64,000 nucleotides of DNA from Anaerolinea thermophila (GTDB lineage: Bacteria > Chloroflexota > Anaerolineae > Anaerolineales > Anaerolineaceae), in the NCBI RefSeq assembly GCF_020723905.1, contig NZ_DYHZ01000001.1, forward strand, positions 365,501 through 429,500, read 5' to 3'. The translations under genes and the position numbers were made by a program. Below are positions 30,961 to 38,619 of this stretch, in pieces (position 1 is the first letter of the stretch; each line of letters opens with the position of its first letter). The notes beneath the pieces were generated by a model, which had not been told where the DNA came from, ran no database searches, and saw nothing but the letters and a program-made list of their open reading frames with translations.

Positions 30961-31000
30961 CAACCGCCGAAGGCTCACTCCCTCGGCGGTTGTATTTTTT
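30961..31000 (+). terminator. Intrinsic terminator after the desaturase
   Basis: CAACCGCCGA (30961-30970) pairs with TCGGCGGTTG (30983-30992), followed by TATTTTTT. Its last bases touch the 3' end of the convergent secA. Confidence 0.92.
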
Positions 31001-34000
31001 AATGGCGCTTATGGCGCTTTTTGCCACTTCGTGGGGAAGAAACCTCTGTGTTGCCGCTCCCGTTTCCGCGCACAGGCAGAGCCTCTTCGCTTTGCGCAGA
31101 AGATGAACCGGAAGGAACCGTCTCGCGCGGTCGGATGTTGAACATGCGGGCAATCACTCCCATGCGAATGTCGCCCAGCAACTGCGAGAACATCTCCGAA
31201 GCACGACTCTTGTATTGCACCAGCGGATCGCGCTGAGCATAGGCTTCCAGTCCAATGGAAACACGCAGGGCTTCCACCCGCGTCAGGTAGTCCACCCACA
31301 GTTCCGAAATGACGCTGAGCAGGAGAGAACGGTGAATTTCATTGGCGCGCCACCAGCCCAGGATTTCTTTCAGGATGTCGCGCTGTTCTTCTGTAAGCGT
31401 CTCCACCGGCGCGTCCAGGGCTTCTTCACCGAGGGATTCCACAATGTAGGGGTGGAGACGGGCATCCAGTTGACGCAGGGTCTGGCGCATCTGGGTAAGG
31501 GTGTAGTAGTCCACCTCGCCGTAGATGTCCTCAAGAAATTCCTGCGCTCCCTGCAAGTGCTCCAACACCTGCTGCGTGATGGTACTGGGATCGGCATCGC
31601 CCAGCATCTTCGCCGCCAGATACACCCAGCGCAGGCGGGTGGTTTGCTGAATGCCCTGCCGGTGAGTGCGGGGGTCAAACACCTTGCGCGTACCGGTAGA
31701 AATACGGGTCAACAGGTTCAGGATGAGTTGCTCATCCTGCCAGTCCGTATTGTCATCCCGCGCCTGGAGCGCGTTATCGAGATCACCGACCACCTGTCCG
31801 CTGGCGCCAAACAAACGTTCCCGCATCCGCGCGAGGAAGGCTTCCACTTCACCCATCAGGGCTTCGCTGGCTTCTTCCCAGTCCATGCCGCTGAACCGGT
31901 TCGGTCGCAGGTTAAGCGTCTCTCCCAGACGGCGCTCGACAGCGCCAATGACGCGGCTGAGATTCAGGTTGAACAGATAGGTCTCAATTTGCTCATGCAG
32001 ATAGTCTTTGAGCCGGTCAGGATCGCTGTCAAGCCAGCGCAGGGCTTCACCACTCAGACGGAAGTTAGGCAGGCGCGCCAGCGTGACCAGTTCTTCGGCG
32101 TATTCTGCCGGACGACGCTGAGGCATTTCTTCTTTGCGGTCATCAAGGGTATCGAAGAAGTTCTCCACCCCTTCCATGCGTTCCGCCACCTGCGCTTCGA
32201 TGGATTCGCCTGTTTTCTCCAGCAAATCCTGCAAGGAATGAATGAGATGCTGACTCTCGGCTTCAAAGGCTTCTTCTGCAATCCCCAGTACGGCATTGCG
32301 AAATTGTCCCTGAGAAGGACTGGACTTCAACCGTTCCTGCACCTCATCCACCAGCAGGCGCAGGGTAAAGGATGGGTAAATCCGATCGCCCCACTGCATG
32401 GGCGGCTGAACATCCTCAAGAAATGCCAGCAACTTCCAGGGTCCTTCATCCTGCTTCAGCGCTTGAGGGACGCGCTCCGCCAGTTCGGTTTTGAGCATCT
32501 CCTCGATATCCTCGCTCAAATCCACCTTGGTAAAGACGCGGTCGCGCTGTTCATAGATGCGTTTGCGCTGGGTATTGAGCACATCGTCGTATTCCAGCAG
32601 GTGTTTACGCACGTCAAAGTTTGCCCCTTCAACGCGTTCCTGCGATTGCTCCACCAGCCGTCCCACCACTCCGCTTTCAATCGGCATACTCTCGTCAATG
32701 TTAAGCCGTTGCATCAATGCGGTTACCTGTTGACCCCCAAACAGGCGCATGAGTTCATCATCCAGCGCCAGATAAAAGCGCGATGATCCCGGGTCGCCCT
32801 GGCGGGCAGCACGACCGCGCAACTGATTATCAATACGGCGGGCTTCGTGGCGTTCGGAGCCAATCACATGCAATCCGCCCAGTTCGCGGACTTTTTCCAT
32901 CTCTTCCATGTACTTCAGGAAAGCGCGCACCTGTTCATCATAAATGCCATATTCTTCGGGGGACATCTGCAGGAGGGCTTGACGGCGCTCTTCATTGGTC
33001 ATGTTATAGGCGTCATACCCCGCGCGTGCCAGTACCCGGTTGGTATCGCCAAGGATTTCTTCATCCAGTTCGCCGCCCAGTTTGATGTCTACGCCGCGCC
33101 CTGCCATGTTGGTTGCAATGGTCACCGCGCCAAAGGCACCCGCGCGGGCAATGATCTGGGACTCCTCATCATGTTTGCGGGCATTCAACACCTGATGGGG
33201 AATGCCGCCCTGCAAGGCGCGCTGAAGACGGCTCAGGTCGTGCCCTTCCACGCCCAGAATACGGGCAAGGCGCTGAATATTTTGCGGTTCTTCCACATTG
33301 AAGGACATGGGCAGGTTGAGCGTGCGTGCCAACTGGCGCAGTTCACCGGTCTCGATTTCTTCCAGTTTACGGTAAAGCGGTTGCAGTTCGGGAATCGCCC
33401 GTTCGATGATTTCAATTTTGCGCGTTTCAATGTACAGGTCGCGCAAAAGTTGAATCTGCGCCAGTTTGCGCAGGTAATCTGCATCCAATCGGCGGGAAAG
33501 CCGCTCGGAGTGTTCCACCGAGGTGGTTCCCACCAGTTGCGGTCTGCCAATCACGTAATACTTGAGGATTTCCATGGTGATGGCGCGCAGTTTGGCTTCC
33601 TCGGTGCGGAACACCATATCGGGGTAATCCTTGCGCTTCCAGAAGATGGGACGCTTCTGCGGGTCATCACGGCGCGCGTAGTAGGTAAATTTGTACCCTT
33701 CGGGGTCTTTGGCTTCCACCGGTGTATAAGGCGAATTGGGACGGCTGGCAAGATATTCCAGATTGGTAGGGATGGGAAGCACTTCGAGTTTATAGATTTT
33801 GTAGAACTCTTCGGACTCCGTCTCCGCTGTACCGCTCATGCCAGCCAGTTTCTGATACATGCGGAAGTAATTCTGGATGGTGATGGTAGCGTAGGTGACA
33901 TTCTCAGGTTCCACCTTGACGCCCTCTTTGGCTTCCACCGCCTGATGCAAGCCCTCTGACCAGCGTCTGCCAGGCATGAGGCGCCCGGTAAATTCGTCAA

Positions 34001-35090
34001 TGATGATGACCTTGCCACCCTGCACCAGATAATCCTTATTCCGTTTGTAGAGGAACTGCGCCCGCAAGGCTTGCTCCAGATACCCCAGCAGACGGGCTTG
34101 CTCAGGGTTGATATCTTCAGGGCGCTCAGGGTCTCGCAGTGGCTCTCCGAGCAGGGCTTCTACATGGGCTTCTCCCACCTCGGTCAGGGTGACGGTGCGG
34201 TTCTTCTCGTCAATTTCGTAATCTTCCGGATTTAACTGCTTGACCACTGCCGCCATGCGCACATACCATGCCGAATCATCCTGCGCCGGGCCCGAAATAA
34301 TCAGCGGGGTACGGGCTTCGTCAATGAGGATATTGTCCACCTCATCCACGATGGCATAGTAATGCCCGCGCTGAACACGGTCTTCCAGGCGCATGGCAAG
34401 ATTATCGCGGAGGTAGTCGAAGCCAAATTCACTGTTCGTGCCGTAAGTGATATCGGCTTTGTAGGCTTCAGCGCGCGAGACCATCTGCAGTTGATGCTGA
34501 TCTTCGTGCGGTGAGGTCTTGCTCAGGTCCACCAGAAAGGCGCTGCGACCGTTATCGGTGCGCGCCGCCATCTGCAGCACGCCCACGCTCATGCCCAGCG
34601 CCTGATAAATGGGCGCCATCCAGCGAGCATCGCGGCGTGCCAGATAATCATTCACTGTAACCAGGTGCACCCCGCGTCCGGTGAGCGCGTTCAGATACAA
34701 CGGCAGGGTTGCCACCAGGGTTTTCCCTTCGCCTGTGCGCATTTCAGCAATGCGCCCGTAGTGAAGCACCATACCGCCAATCAACTGCACGTCATAATGA
34801 CGCAAGCCAATGGTGCGTTTGGACGCCTCGCGGACCGCCGCAAATGCCTGCGGCAGGATCTCGTTCAGGGCGGTTTGCTCCGCCTGATAACGCTCGTTTT
34901 CGTCCTCAATGCCCTCCACAGCGGCGCGGATTCTCGCGCGGAACTCTTCGGTCTTGGCGCGCAGGGCGTCATCGCTCAGTTTTTCATATTCGGCTTCCAG
35001 CGCATTGATCTGCTCAACAATCTGCGCCAGCCGTTCAATTTCTCGTCTGTTCGGATCTAACCCTAAAAAATTGACCAGTTTTTTAAACAT
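30999..35090 (-). CDS. secA: Preprotein translocase ATPase SecA, unusually long
   Basis: A 1363-residue SecA motor (E. coli 901), which pushes unfolded preproteins through SecYEG. The DEAD motor is intact: MRTGEGKT (Walker A), VDEVD (Walker B), [14 protein letters not shown] and [21 protein letters not shown]. Two insertions explain the length. About 90 residues lie between [13 protein letters not shown] (~526) and [13 protein letters not shown] (~631) in motor domain 2. About 300 lie between [20 protein letters not shown] (~830) and [15 protein letters not shown] (~1261) in the helical scaffold/wing. The usual C-terminal zinc-binding CxC...CH is absent; the tail is basic (GKKRHKRH). ATG 35090 follows GAGG with a TATAAT at 35112-35117. 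Confidence 0.95.
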
Positions 35091-35111
35091 ACCCAAAACC
35101 TCTGATGCTGG

Positions 35112-35117
35112 ATTATA
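35112..35117 (-). promoter_or_regulatory. -10 box of secA
   Basis: Perfect TATAAT on the minus strand 21 bp upstream of ATG 35090; no convincing -35. A short leader with GAGG remains. Confidence 0.55.
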
Positions 35118-35229
35118 GCACAGCGCAGCCCCCTTATTTACGTTGGGTGTCCGGGAAAAAATTAAGCAATTTCTCACCCAAAAGAGTCAAAATTTTGTCA
35201 ACGTTCTTCCTCTCCCCGTTGAATTCTTC

Positions 35230-35241: not shown

Positions 35242-36045
35242 ATGGCATCCCCCCTTCCTTCCACGGTCTTGACCTGCACCCAGTGCGGTGGCGAGTTGCA
35301 TCCCGATGAGGGACAAATTTTCCTCACCTGCCCGTACTGTAGCGCCACTGTGTACGTGGACAAAAGCCGCGTGGTGTTTCACTGGTATGTGGCACCCACA
35401 CTGGACGAAGCCCAGGCCCGCGCCGCCCTGCATCGCTGGATGTCGGGAAACGAGACGGTCAAGGATCTGGATAAAAAGTCGCAGGTGGTAGAAGTCCAGT
35501 TTCAGTATTTTCCTCTGTGGTACTTTCGGGTGAAAGAAAACAGCAGGGAGTCCATTCGTCTCCAGCCCGCTGCGGCAACCGCACAAACCGAAGTGACGCA
35601 CCTGCAAATCCCTGCGGGCGATTTGCGCCGCTATGAGCCTTCCCTCGACCCGCAAGCCGTCTCCCCAACCGTGCCCCTGGAGGCAGCGCTGGAATGGGTA
35701 AGCCAAAAGCAGGAGAAAATTGCAGTGGTAGAAAGCGCGCTTGTTCACGTCCCCCTGTACGTCTTTCGTTATATATTTCAGGGTAAACCCTTTACCGCAG
35801 TAGTGGATGGCTCCAGTGCGCGGGTGCTGGCAAACATTTACCCTGCCAAAGACGAACTACCCTACCGCATCGTTGGAGGCGTTGCGGCGGGCGTGTATCT
35901 GTGTCTGGCAATGATCCCGGTCTTCATGGGCATTACCGGCGGGGGCGAGGACGCCACAGCAGGCTTCTTTGTTTGTACCGGACTGGGCATCCTCATTGCC
36001 CCACTCCTGCTGGTGTGGGCTTTGTGGGTGGCGGCGAAAGTATGA
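35242..36045 (+). CDS. Zinc-ribbon membrane protein (first of three paralogue-like genes)
   Basis: A 267-residue protein with an N-terminal TFIIB-like zinc ribbon (LTCTQCGGELHPDEGQ, then LTCPYCSATVYVD). A soluble region contains the motif VQFQYFPLWYFRVKEN and later VHVPLYVFRYIFQGKPFTAVVDG. Two C-terminal hydrophobic helices follow (VAAGVYLCLAMIPVFMG and the last 25 residues). The layout recalls zinc-ribbon membrane proteins such as Bacillus YdjG (inference). It is the first gene of a tightly coupled unit; its stop codon overlaps the next start (ATGA). The function is unknown. Confidence 0.8.
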   Translation: MASPLPSTVLTCTQCGGELHPDEGQIFLTCPYCSATVYVDKSRVVFHWYVAPTLDEAQARAALHRWMSGNETVKDLDKKSQVVEVQFQYFPLWYFRVKENSRESIRLQPAAATAQTEVTHLQIPAGDLRRYEPSLDPQAVSPTVPLEAALEWVSQKQEKIAVVESALVHVPLYVFRYIFQGKPFTAVVDGSSARVLANIYPAKDELPYRIVGGVAAGVYLCLAMIPVFMGITGGGEDATAGFFVCTGLGILIAPLLLVWALWVAAKV

Positions 36046-37073
36046 GCACACAGGCACTCCATGGATTAACCTGTCCGCGATGTGGCGGCACCGTTCCCAT
36101 CCCGGAAGGGCAACGGCTGGTCATCTGTCCGTACTGCGATCTCCGATCGGTGATCAGCGGGGAAGAGGGCGTTCGGCGTTATCAGGTGCCTTTGCGTGTG
36201 GAACACGAGGCAGCCGAAAAAGCCTTTCGTGCGTTCCTCTCCAGCAGTCCATCCATCGCCCCGGGGGTTGCCCGCCAGGCGCAATTGAGCGAGATGTTTC
36301 TGGTGTACCTGCCCTTCTGGTCAGCATGGGGAAAGGGGGTAGCATGGGCATTTGGTCAGCAGAGAGTCGGATCAGGGGATGATGCCCGCTACGAGCCCCG
36401 CGAACGCCGCGCCACCGCCGAACTCAACTGGACACAGGTTGCCTGCGATGTCGGTGAATTTGGCGTGCAACGGATTGAACTCAAGGGCTGTCCGCTGGAA
36501 CCCTTCGACCCGGAAGCCCTGCACCGCAAGGGAATGGTGTTTGAGCCCATCGGCTCGCCCCAGCAAGCCCTGAAGGACGCACAACAATCCTTTAAAACTC
36601 ATATTCAGGAAAAAGTATCCCTCTCCAAAACCGCACAGGTGTTCACCCGCATTCTTAATCCCCGTCTGGGACTGGTGTACTACCCCGTCTGGGTGGTGCG
36701 CTACCTGCACCGGCAACGCGCCTATCAGGTCGTAATTGATGGATTTCACGGCACTGTGCTGTACGGAAAAGCCCCCGGCAACCTGCTCATGCGCGCGCTC
36801 ACGCTGATCGCGGGTATGGCTTTCGGCGCGATGCTTGCAGTAGACATTCCTGCGCTGATTCTGTCCATCTCAGACAGCGAAGATATCGTGGGGATTGCCC
36901 TGATCGCCTTTGGCGGCGGGCTTGCGCTCATGTATGGTGGGTATCACCGCTTCCGTCACGGCGAACACTACGAGTATCACCGTTTTAAAGGCACATCCTC
37001 TTCTTTGCTGGAACTGGGGGAAAACACCGACCTGTCGCAATTCTTAAAAGCCCTTCGGGAGTGGAACTCATGA
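36042..37073 (+). CDS. Zinc-ribbon membrane protein (second of three)
   Basis: A 343-residue protein with the same plan as its upstream neighbour: zinc ribbon LTCPRCGGTVPIPEGQ / VICPYCDLRSVIS, a middle part with FLVYLPFWSAWGKG, then LGLVYYPVWVVRYLHRQRAYQVVIDG, and two C-terminal membrane helices (TLIAGMAFGAMLAVDIPALI, DIVGIALIAFGGGLALMYGG). The repeated Y.P.W and VxDG motifs show that genes one and two are diverged duplicates. ATG 36042 overlaps the preceding TGA, and its own stop overlaps the next ATG, so translation is coupled along the unit. Confidence 0.8.
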   Translation: MSTQALHGLTCPRCGGTVPIPEGQRLVICPYCDLRSVISGEEGVRRYQVPLRVEHEAAEKAFRAFLSSSPSIAPGVARQAQLSEMFLVYLPFWSAWGKGVAWAFGQQRVGSGDDARYEPRERRATAELNWTQVACDVGEFGVQRIELKGCPLEPFDPEALHRKGMVFEPIGSPQQALKDAQQSFKTHIQEKVSLSKTAQVFTRILNPRLGLVYYPVWVVRYLHRQRAYQVVIDGFHGTVLYGKAPGNLLMRALTLIAGMAFGAMLAVDIPALILSISDSEDIVGIALIAFGGGLALMYGGYHRFRHGEHYEYHRFKGTSSSLLELGENTDLSQFLKALREWNS

Positions 37074-37612
37074 CACAGCCTGTGCGCTTGATTCCTCTGT
37101 TATGTCCGCATTGCCAGACCCCCATCCCAGCCCAGCCCGATGAGGTGGCATGGGTGTGCAGTAACTGTCAGAAGGGGGCACTGCTGGATGAAAAAAAGGG
37201 CGCTGTGCCGCTGAATGTGTTTTTTCATGCCAGCCTTGCGGCAGGCAAAAAAGGCGCGCCGTTCTGGGTCACCCGCGGCAAAGTTACCTTTCAGGAGCGA
37301 ATCACCTATCAGGGAAATGAGCAAAAAGCCATGCAGGATTTCTGGGCAGAATCCCGTCTCTTTGCCATTCCAGCCTTCGCCCTGCCCCTGGAAGAAGCCG
37401 TTGTCATGGGGGTTAAATTTTTACACCAGCCCATCCCCATGGAGATGGGCAAACCCGCGCCTTTCCCACCCATTGTGGTTCCCCCGCAGGATGTGCATCC
37501 GCTGGCGGAATTTATCGTCATGAGCGTGGAAGCCGAACGCAAAGACGCCCTGAAACACCTGAAATTCACCCTGACACTGGAGCCTTTACAATGCTGGATT
37601 CTCCCCGTCTGA
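37070..37612 (+). CDS. Small zinc-ribbon protein (third of three)
   Basis: A 180-residue protein with an N-terminal zinc ribbon (LLCPHCQTPIPAQPDE / WVCSNCQKGALLD) and a soluble domain (PLNVFFHASLAAGKKGAPFW, FPPIVVPPQDVHPLAEFIV). It has no membrane helix, unlike its two neighbours, so it may be the cytoplasmic partner of the set. Start ATG 37070 overlaps the previous stop (ATGA). Its last 22 bases overlap the PLD gene. I do not recognise a named family. Confidence 0.78.
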   Translation: MTQPVRLIPLLCPHCQTPIPAQPDEVAWVCSNCQKGALLDEKKGAVPLNVFFHASLAAGKKGAPFWVTRGKVTFQERITYQGNEQKAMQDFWAESRLFAIPAFALPLEEAVVMGVKFLHQPIPMEMGKPAPFPPIVVPPQDVHPLAEFIVMSVEAERKDALKHLKFTLTLEPLQCWILPV

Positions 37613-38619
37613 AACTGCGCTTACTGATTGCGCTGAGCCTTCTCGCCTTCCTGCTGGTTGCCTGCGAAGAGCCTGCTCCCTCTTCCACTGGCATTCAGGC
37701 TTACTTCACCAACCCCGCTTCTTCCTCTCAGAATCAAGCCCTTCAGGATGCCCTGCTGGACTCCCTGAACAATGCCCGCACTTCAGTGGATATTGCCATG
37801 TACAATTTCAATCTCCTCGAAGCCGGCAATGCTTTGCGCAAAGCCCGCAGCAACGGGGCAGCAGTGCGCATCGTTGTGGACTCGGACGCCATGGACAACA
37901 AACTGCTCCAGCAACTGCGCCGGGAAGGATTTGAGGTGCTGGGGGATCGGCGGGAAGGGCTGATGCACAACAAATTTATCGTCATTGACGGCAAAACCGT
38001 CTGGACGGGTTCGCTCAACCTGACCTACGGCGGACTGACCAATGACGAAAACAACCTGGTCCGGATTGAATCTCCCGACCTGGCGGAACGCTACACCGAA
38101 GAGTTCAATGAAATGTTTGAAGAGGATCTTTTTGGAGGCGGCACCCCTCTGGGTGAGCGTAGCGCCCTGACCCTCAATGGTAACCGGGCATGGTTGTACT
38201 TTTCTCCGGAGGATGTGCCCTCGCAAGCCATTCTGGAACGCATCCAACAAACCCAGACTTCCATTAACATGCTGGCATACGCCTTTACCCTGAACGACTT
38301 GCGCGACGCCCTGCTGGAATCGGCTCACCGGGGGCTGGATGTACGCATCGTCTTCGACGCAGGTCAATCCACTGCCACAGGGAGCGAATACCAAACGCTG
38401 AAAAACGCCGGTCTGGATGTCCGTCTGGATGGGAGTTCTGGTCTGATGCACCACAAGGTGATCATTCTGGACGGCAAAACCGTAATTTTTGGCTCGTACA
38501 ATTTCACCCGCAGTGCTGATGTCAACAACGATGAAAATGTGCTCATTGTGGAGAACGCGGAACTGGCAAAGCAGTTTACCCGCACCTTTGAGCGGATTTA
38601 CACCCAGGCTCAACCTTAA
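37591..38619 (+). CDS. Phospholipase D-like lipoprotein with two HKD motifs
   Basis: A 342-residue exported lipoprotein: signal peptide LRLLIALSLLAFLLVAC with lipobox LVAC (Cys about residue 26). Two PLD half-sites follow, HNKFIVIDGKTVWTGSLN and HHKVIILDGKTVIFGSYN, each of the form HxK(x)4D. Both sites are complete, so it should be catalytic. Family members act as phospholipases, cardiolipin synthases or nucleases; the compact ~150-residue repeats resemble the Nuc-type endonuclease group more than cardiolipin synthase. It is translated from an ATG inside the zinc-ribbon gene, which ties it to that unit. Confidence 0.88.
   Translation: MLDSPRLKLRLLIALSLLAFLLVACEEPAPSSTGIQAYFTNPASSSQNQALQDALLDSLNNARTSVDIAMYNFNLLEAGNALRKARSNGAAVRIVVDSDAMDNKLLQQLRREGFEVLGDRREGLMHNKFIVIDGKTVWTGSLNLTYGGLTNDENNLVRIESPDLAERYTEEFNEMFEEDLFGGGTPLGERSALTLNGNRAWLYFSPEDVPSQAILERIQQTQTSINMLAYAFTLNDLRDALLESAHRGLDVRIVFDAGQSTATGSEYQTLKNAGLDVRLDGSSGLMHHKVIILDGKTVIFGSYNFTRSADVNNDENVLIVENAELAKQFTRTFERIYTQAQP

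Follow-up and report, generated by a model that had tools for sequence, protein, structure and literature searches.

A conserved trio of YdjG-type zinc-ribbon genes linked to SPFH genes, with a lineage-specific exported PLD-family lipoprotein in Anaerolineales

Introduction

Membrane-stress systems built on PspA and SPFH proteins are known mainly from Bacillus subtilis and Proteobacteria. In B. subtilis, the membrane localisation of both the SPFH protein YdjI and PspA requires YdjG and YdjH (PMC8581546). YdjG contains two zinc ribbons, a YpeB-related domain and a transmembrane (TM) segment, and some proteobacterial PspA/flotillin operons are reported to include PLD genes (PMC11237479). A DNA-binding role has been suggested for the YdjG ribbon by Popp et al. 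(PMC9239133).

Here we describe a four-gene locus, A-B-C-D, of Anaerolinea thermophila, found in a stretch of 64,000 nucleotides that was analysed as a whole (the window). Genes A, B and C represent the YdjG/YdjI (SPFH) membrane-stress architecture in a form built on three paralogues, with PspA undetected and a PLD-family gene, D, added in one lineage. As in the B. subtilis pspA-ydjGHI locus, A and B have the YdjG-family domain plan and a membrane hairpin, and outside Chloroflexota the trio is linked to a YdjI-type (Band_7_1) SPFH gene. The locus differs from pspA-ydjGHI in having three one-ribbon paralogues, one of them soluble, in place of a single two-ribbon YdjG; in the lack of a detectable PspA in the window's genome and of any TPM gene found nearby; in an SPFH gene that is unlinked and HTH_17-fused in this genome; and in the added exported PLD. 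It also resembles the SPFH and TFIIB-type zinc-ribbon gene pairs on plasmids of Comamonas, Paracoccus and Tsukamurella, where a YdjG-family protein is encoded directly after SPFH, but these pairs have one long double-ribbon protein where A-B-C has three. D matches Nuc/NucT and mitochondrial cardiolipin hydrolase of the PLD superfamily by sequence; unlike them, it is a predicted lipoprotein with two HKD motifs, and it scores below the curated NucT and cardiolipin synthase cut-offs.

Results

Organization of the A-B-C-D locus

All four genes lie on the + strand, with overlaps of 4 bp (A/B), 4 bp (B/C) and 22 bp (C/D), exactly the ATGA, ATGA and 22-bp overlaps given in an earlier sequence-only reading of the window. 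The genes and their features are as follows.

35242..36045, +, gene A, YdjG-type paralogue 1 (267 aa): zinc ribbon, YPxW/VDG domain and two C-terminal membrane helices
35275..35340, +, zinc ribbon of A, C12 C15 C30 C33, invariant in 56 sequences
35860..36042, +, membrane hairpin of A, residues about 207-267, from hydropathy
36042..37073, +, gene B (343 aa), second YdjG-type paralogue, overlapping A by ATGA
36072..36137, +, zinc ribbon of B, C11 C14 C29 C32, invariant in 60 sequences
36780..36959, +, membrane hairpin of B, residues 247-306, from the B model and hydropathy; flanked by basic residues, with a short acidic loop predicted to face outward
37070..37612, +, gene C (180 aa), a soluble protein with a zinc ribbon and no membrane helices, the third and most distant paralogue, overlapping B by ATGA
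37103..37168, +, zinc ribbon of C, C12 C15 C30 C33, invariant in 59 sequences
37591..38619, +, gene D (342 aa), a lineage-specific companion encoding an exported lipoprotein of the PLD family, overlapping C by 22 bp
37591..37665, +, lipoprotein signal peptide of D, with lipobox cysteine C25 (LLVA-C25)
37966..37989, +, first HKD motif of D, HNKFIVID, residues 126-133
38449..38472, +, second HKD motif of D, HHKVIILD, residues 287-294

A SecA gene is divergent from gene A (window 30999-35177, - strand) and encodes about 1360-1390 aa; a typical SecA is much shorter.

Conservation of A-B-C

A B-profile scan of 84,980 species genomes gave 127 relatives, and the 80 best were retained. Among these best 80 of 127, A lies directly upstream of B in all 75 testable loci, the five others starting less than 400 bases from a contig end, and C lies downstream of B in 78 of 79, with L136 as the exception and L190, cut by a contig end, left out of the count. 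Median gaps within the trio are 4 and -4 bp; in a small number of loci, A and B are separated by an extra gene or by as much as 1.1 kb. The extra gene at the two ignavibacterial loci L184 and L186 encodes 165 aa.

Judged from the record titles, the bacterial hosts belong to Chloroflexota (Anaerolineae and others), Ignavibacteria/Chlorobi, Bacteroidetes and Acidobacteria, and the archaeal ones are an ANME-2 archaeon and a Euryarchaeota MAG; the list may include MAG binning errors. The distribution is patchy: A-B-C was found in 8 of 150 sampled genomes of the class, and a B-type gene in 14 of 61 near relatives, in some of which contig ends cut A or C. The internal order stays constant amid many different surroundings. 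Since the ordered trio recurs in 80 loci (the best 80 of 127 relatives) from several phyla, its order is far beyond chance. The four-gene order persists in part: A-B-C is kept across phyla and is the conserved core unit, while D is adjacent only in a subset of Anaerolineales.

A and B are YdjG-family paralogues and C is a soluble, more distant member

Profile comparison of A and B by hhalign gave a probability of 99.7%, or 99.8% with deeper alignments, which bears out their proposed descent as diverged paralogues, each with a single CxxC...CxxC ribbon and a pair of hydrophobic helices at the C-terminus. C likewise has a single ribbon, as opposed to two in YdjG, and is without a C-terminal TM segment; as had been proposed for it, the predicted structure comprises a ribbon and a soluble domain, the latter predicted well (pLDDT 96).

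To place the proteins relative to YdjG, we took an Enterococcus zinc-ribbon protein, encoded in an SPFH-ZnR-TPM locus, as a stand-in for B. subtilis YdjG. This protein is encoded next to a TPM domain protein, and the locus is likened to ydjGHI because the gene set (SPFH, ZnR, TPM) is the same. The B profile matched it over positions 9-239 (E 1.3e-15 at Z=1e5), and further matches of B included proteins of Comamonas, Paracoccus and Tsukamurella, each encoded directly downstream of an SPFH gene. The profiles B60 and A56 match YdjG-family proteins of SPFH loci across most of their length, and profile comparison identified a homologous YPxW...VDG/NG domain between the ribbon and the TM segment in both A and B. 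By sequence, we thus assign A and B to the YdjG family as paralogues, and C as a more distant, soluble third member whose link to the family is weak outside the ribbon.

A family of long, double-ribbon Chloroflexota proteins is also related to the trio (hhalign 99.6, 99.8 and 96.1% for A, B and C, with C the weakest). With a member of this long family as query, plasmid-borne relatives were found directly downstream of SPFH in Comamonas, Paracoccus and Tsukamurella, along with the Enterococcus SPFH-ZnR-TPM array, whereas the same plasmid search with B as query gave no match. No SPFH neighbour was present beside the long Chloroflexota proteins in 20 fetched regions. They occur as tandem pairs at L214, L215, L216 and L229 and singly elsewhere; at one locus such a gene (L133:5707-7131) lies immediately upstream of A-B-C.

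Scans of A, B and C against Pfam, NCBIfam and PADLOC returned only ribbon-level noise and no model describing them, and we found no published description of the trio, in agreement with the initial impression that no system of this composition had been described. Foldseek and VIA-align searches against the PDB left the B and C domains unmatched beyond the ribbon and a helical hairpin, which does not count as evidence for a new fold. The ribbon and main domain of B are predicted to face the cytoplasm, given the basic flanks of the hairpin and the acidic loop between its helices.

The SPFH partner

In 17 of 17 testable loci outside Chloroflexota, among them loci of Ignavibacteria, Acidobacteria and archaea, A is immediately preceded by a Band_7_1 (PF13421, YdjI-type) SPFH gene, with gaps of 11-361 bp; these do not represent 17 independent events, since the sample consists mostly of Ignavibacteria. 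The 18th such locus, L177, begins 195 bases before A and is left out of this count. Those SPFH proteins that were scanned carry SHOCT or a zinc ribbon at the C-terminus. A small helical protein is encoded in 5 of the 17 loci and was seen directly upstream of SPFH in four. Together with the profile homology to YdjG-family proteins of SPFH-ZnR(-TPM) loci, this linkage supports the envelope-stress relationship to YdjG that the sequence-only reading had offered as a lead.

In Chloroflexota, none of the fetched flanks of A-B-C (up to 8 kb) contains an SPFH gene. The window's genome encodes one Band_7_1 SPFH protein, on another contig (L193:8907-9953, equivalent to G000:C2:174909-175952, - strand), which is the orthologue of the SPFH proteins encoded upstream of A elsewhere. 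At its C-terminus it carries HTH_17, an excisionase-like DNA-binding domain; the fusion of a membrane scaffold to a DNA binder is unusual. The SPFH protein of the Comamonas plasmid, encoded beside a zinc-ribbon protein, bears the same HTH_17 fusion. Next to the SPFH gene of the window's genome is a gene for a small helical protein (L193:9971-10504, - strand), homologous to the helical protein encoded upstream of SPFH-A-B-C in Ignavibacteria, Bacteroidetes, ANME-2 and Acidobacteria (E 5e-21 to 3e-19). It weakly matches the NCBIfam model LIMLP_15305 (52.5 bits against a cut-off of 210) and is a possible substitute for PspA.

Within the class, the SPFH gene is found in 127 of 150 genomes and the helical protein in 122 of 150, compared with 8 of 150 for A-B-C. 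SPFH is therefore independent of A-B-C in this class, and the co-occurrence of the trio with the SPFH-helical dyad at genome level is uninformative, since the dyad is near-universal there. A search for PspA (PF04012) gave no match in the window's genome and matched 9 of 14 control genomes. No TPM gene was detected among the ORFs of the A-B-C flanks by single-sequence phmmer, which was applied to the flanks only.

The PLD-family lipoprotein D

D had been read as an exported PLD with two complete HKD sites, and the predictions agree: the protein has the lipobox and two full HxKx4Dx6GSxN motifs, starting at residues 126 and 287, and matches PF13091 with 196.9 bits over two stretches. Among the 80 loci (the best 80 of 127 relatives), D adjoins A-B-C in 23, all of them in Chloroflexota, and in 19 of these 23 it overlaps the trio or lies within 150 bp. 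Among the non-Chloroflexota A-B-C loci it is adjacent in 0 of 18.

When 23 linked and 20 unlinked PLDs were placed in one tree, the linked sequences grouped together with support of 99/94. The same group takes in six PLDs of family f2, a family whose genomes keep D and in which A-B-C was not found. The linked/unlinked label requires 2 changes on this tree, compared with 14.6 in shuffles. This topology suggests one linkage event in Anaerolineales, followed by one separation of D from A-B-C in the sister family f2. On that history, D would be an old companion of the trio in Anaerolineales that lies outside the core, so the view of the four genes as a single system is only partly right: it holds for A-B-C, and the PLD appears as an addition in one lineage.

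The nearest solved relatives of D in the PDB are a bacterial endonuclease, which is the best match, and mitochondrial cardiolipin hydrolase. This mixed pair leaves both lipid and nucleic acid as candidate substrates of D, and D may have a role in lipid remodelling.

Discussion

We consider it reasonably likely that A-B-C is a three-subunit, YdjG-like membrane anchor or sensor for an SPFH scaffold, joined in one lineage by an exported PLD-type phosphodiesterase. The trio probably anchors a flotillin-like, membrane-stress-responsive scaffold to the membrane. The three proteins would act as one complex, in which A and B are held in the cytoplasmic membrane by their C-terminal hairpins, the ribbon and the beta-rich domain lie on the cytoplasmic side, and C serves as a soluble partner. 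Modelled on the anchoring of YdjI and PspA by YdjG and YdjH, this complex would anchor a YdjI-type SPFH scaffold, perhaps with gating by the state of the membrane. In the window's genome the SPFH partner would be supplied in trans, from its place beside the small helical protein, and its HTH_17 domain means that the output of the system may include gene regulation. D, which would have joined in Anaerolineales, is a putative lipid-anchored phosphodiesterase outside the membrane and may act on phospholipid or nucleic acid upon envelope damage.

A more elaborate version of this model, in which a PspA-independent three-subunit sensor holds SPFH-HTH at the membrane, damage causes its release or reorganisation and thereby a change in transcription, and the Anaerolineales-specific PLD is a membrane-remodelling effector, appears unlikely as a whole. 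Transcriptional control is also central to a different proposal, that A-B-C acts as a regulatory complex tethered to the membrane and binding DNA or RNA polymerase through its ribbons, with the SPFH link secondary. The ribbons are weakly similar to those of TFIIB and RNA polymerase, DNA binding has been proposed for the YdjG ribbon (Popp et al., PMC9239133), and the SPFH protein of the window's genome carries its HTH_17 domain; but A and B are predicted membrane proteins whose strongest conservation outside the ribbon is in the YPxW/VDG domain beside the membrane helices, and no constant target gene lies near A-B-C in Chloroflexota. We therefore regard such a complex as quite improbable.

The remaining alternatives turn on D. 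If A-B-C-D were one lipid-remodelling or membrane-repair system, A-B-C would sense damage and D would cleave phospholipids of the outer face. The tight coupling of C and D, the single clade of linked PLDs joined only by those of family f2, the cardiolipin hydrolase among the PDB relatives of D, and the PLD genes of proteobacterial PspA/flotillin operons (PMC11237479) all fit this idea. It is nevertheless a rather poor prospect: D is missing beside A-B-C outside Chloroflexota and is retained without A-B-C in family f2, its best PDB match is the endonuclease, and D and the ribbons of A and B are predicted on opposite faces of the membrane. A nuclease-based anti-phage defence system, which the sequence-only reading had raised, would draw on the similarity of D to Nuc and NucT, both PLD nucleases, and to the superfamily of DISARM DrmC. 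The closest curated model is the DrmC model NF038319, with which D scores 81.4 bits, under the cut-off of 133, and the PADLOC matches of D extend to the PLD superfamily only; A, B and C have no PADLOC match, D is an exported protein, the neighbours that were inspected included no recognised defence genes, and the conserved partner is an SPFH protein. A defence role is very improbable, and we rejected it because no marker supports it.

Compared with the described systems, the new element is a set of three YdjG-type proteins, encoded in fixed order in several bacterial phyla and some archaea, for which there are no curated models. If the role favoured above, that of anchor or sensor, is correct, SPFH scaffolds have a membrane-anchoring partner that works without PspA, and the SPFH-HTH fusion would tie the state of the membrane to gene control.
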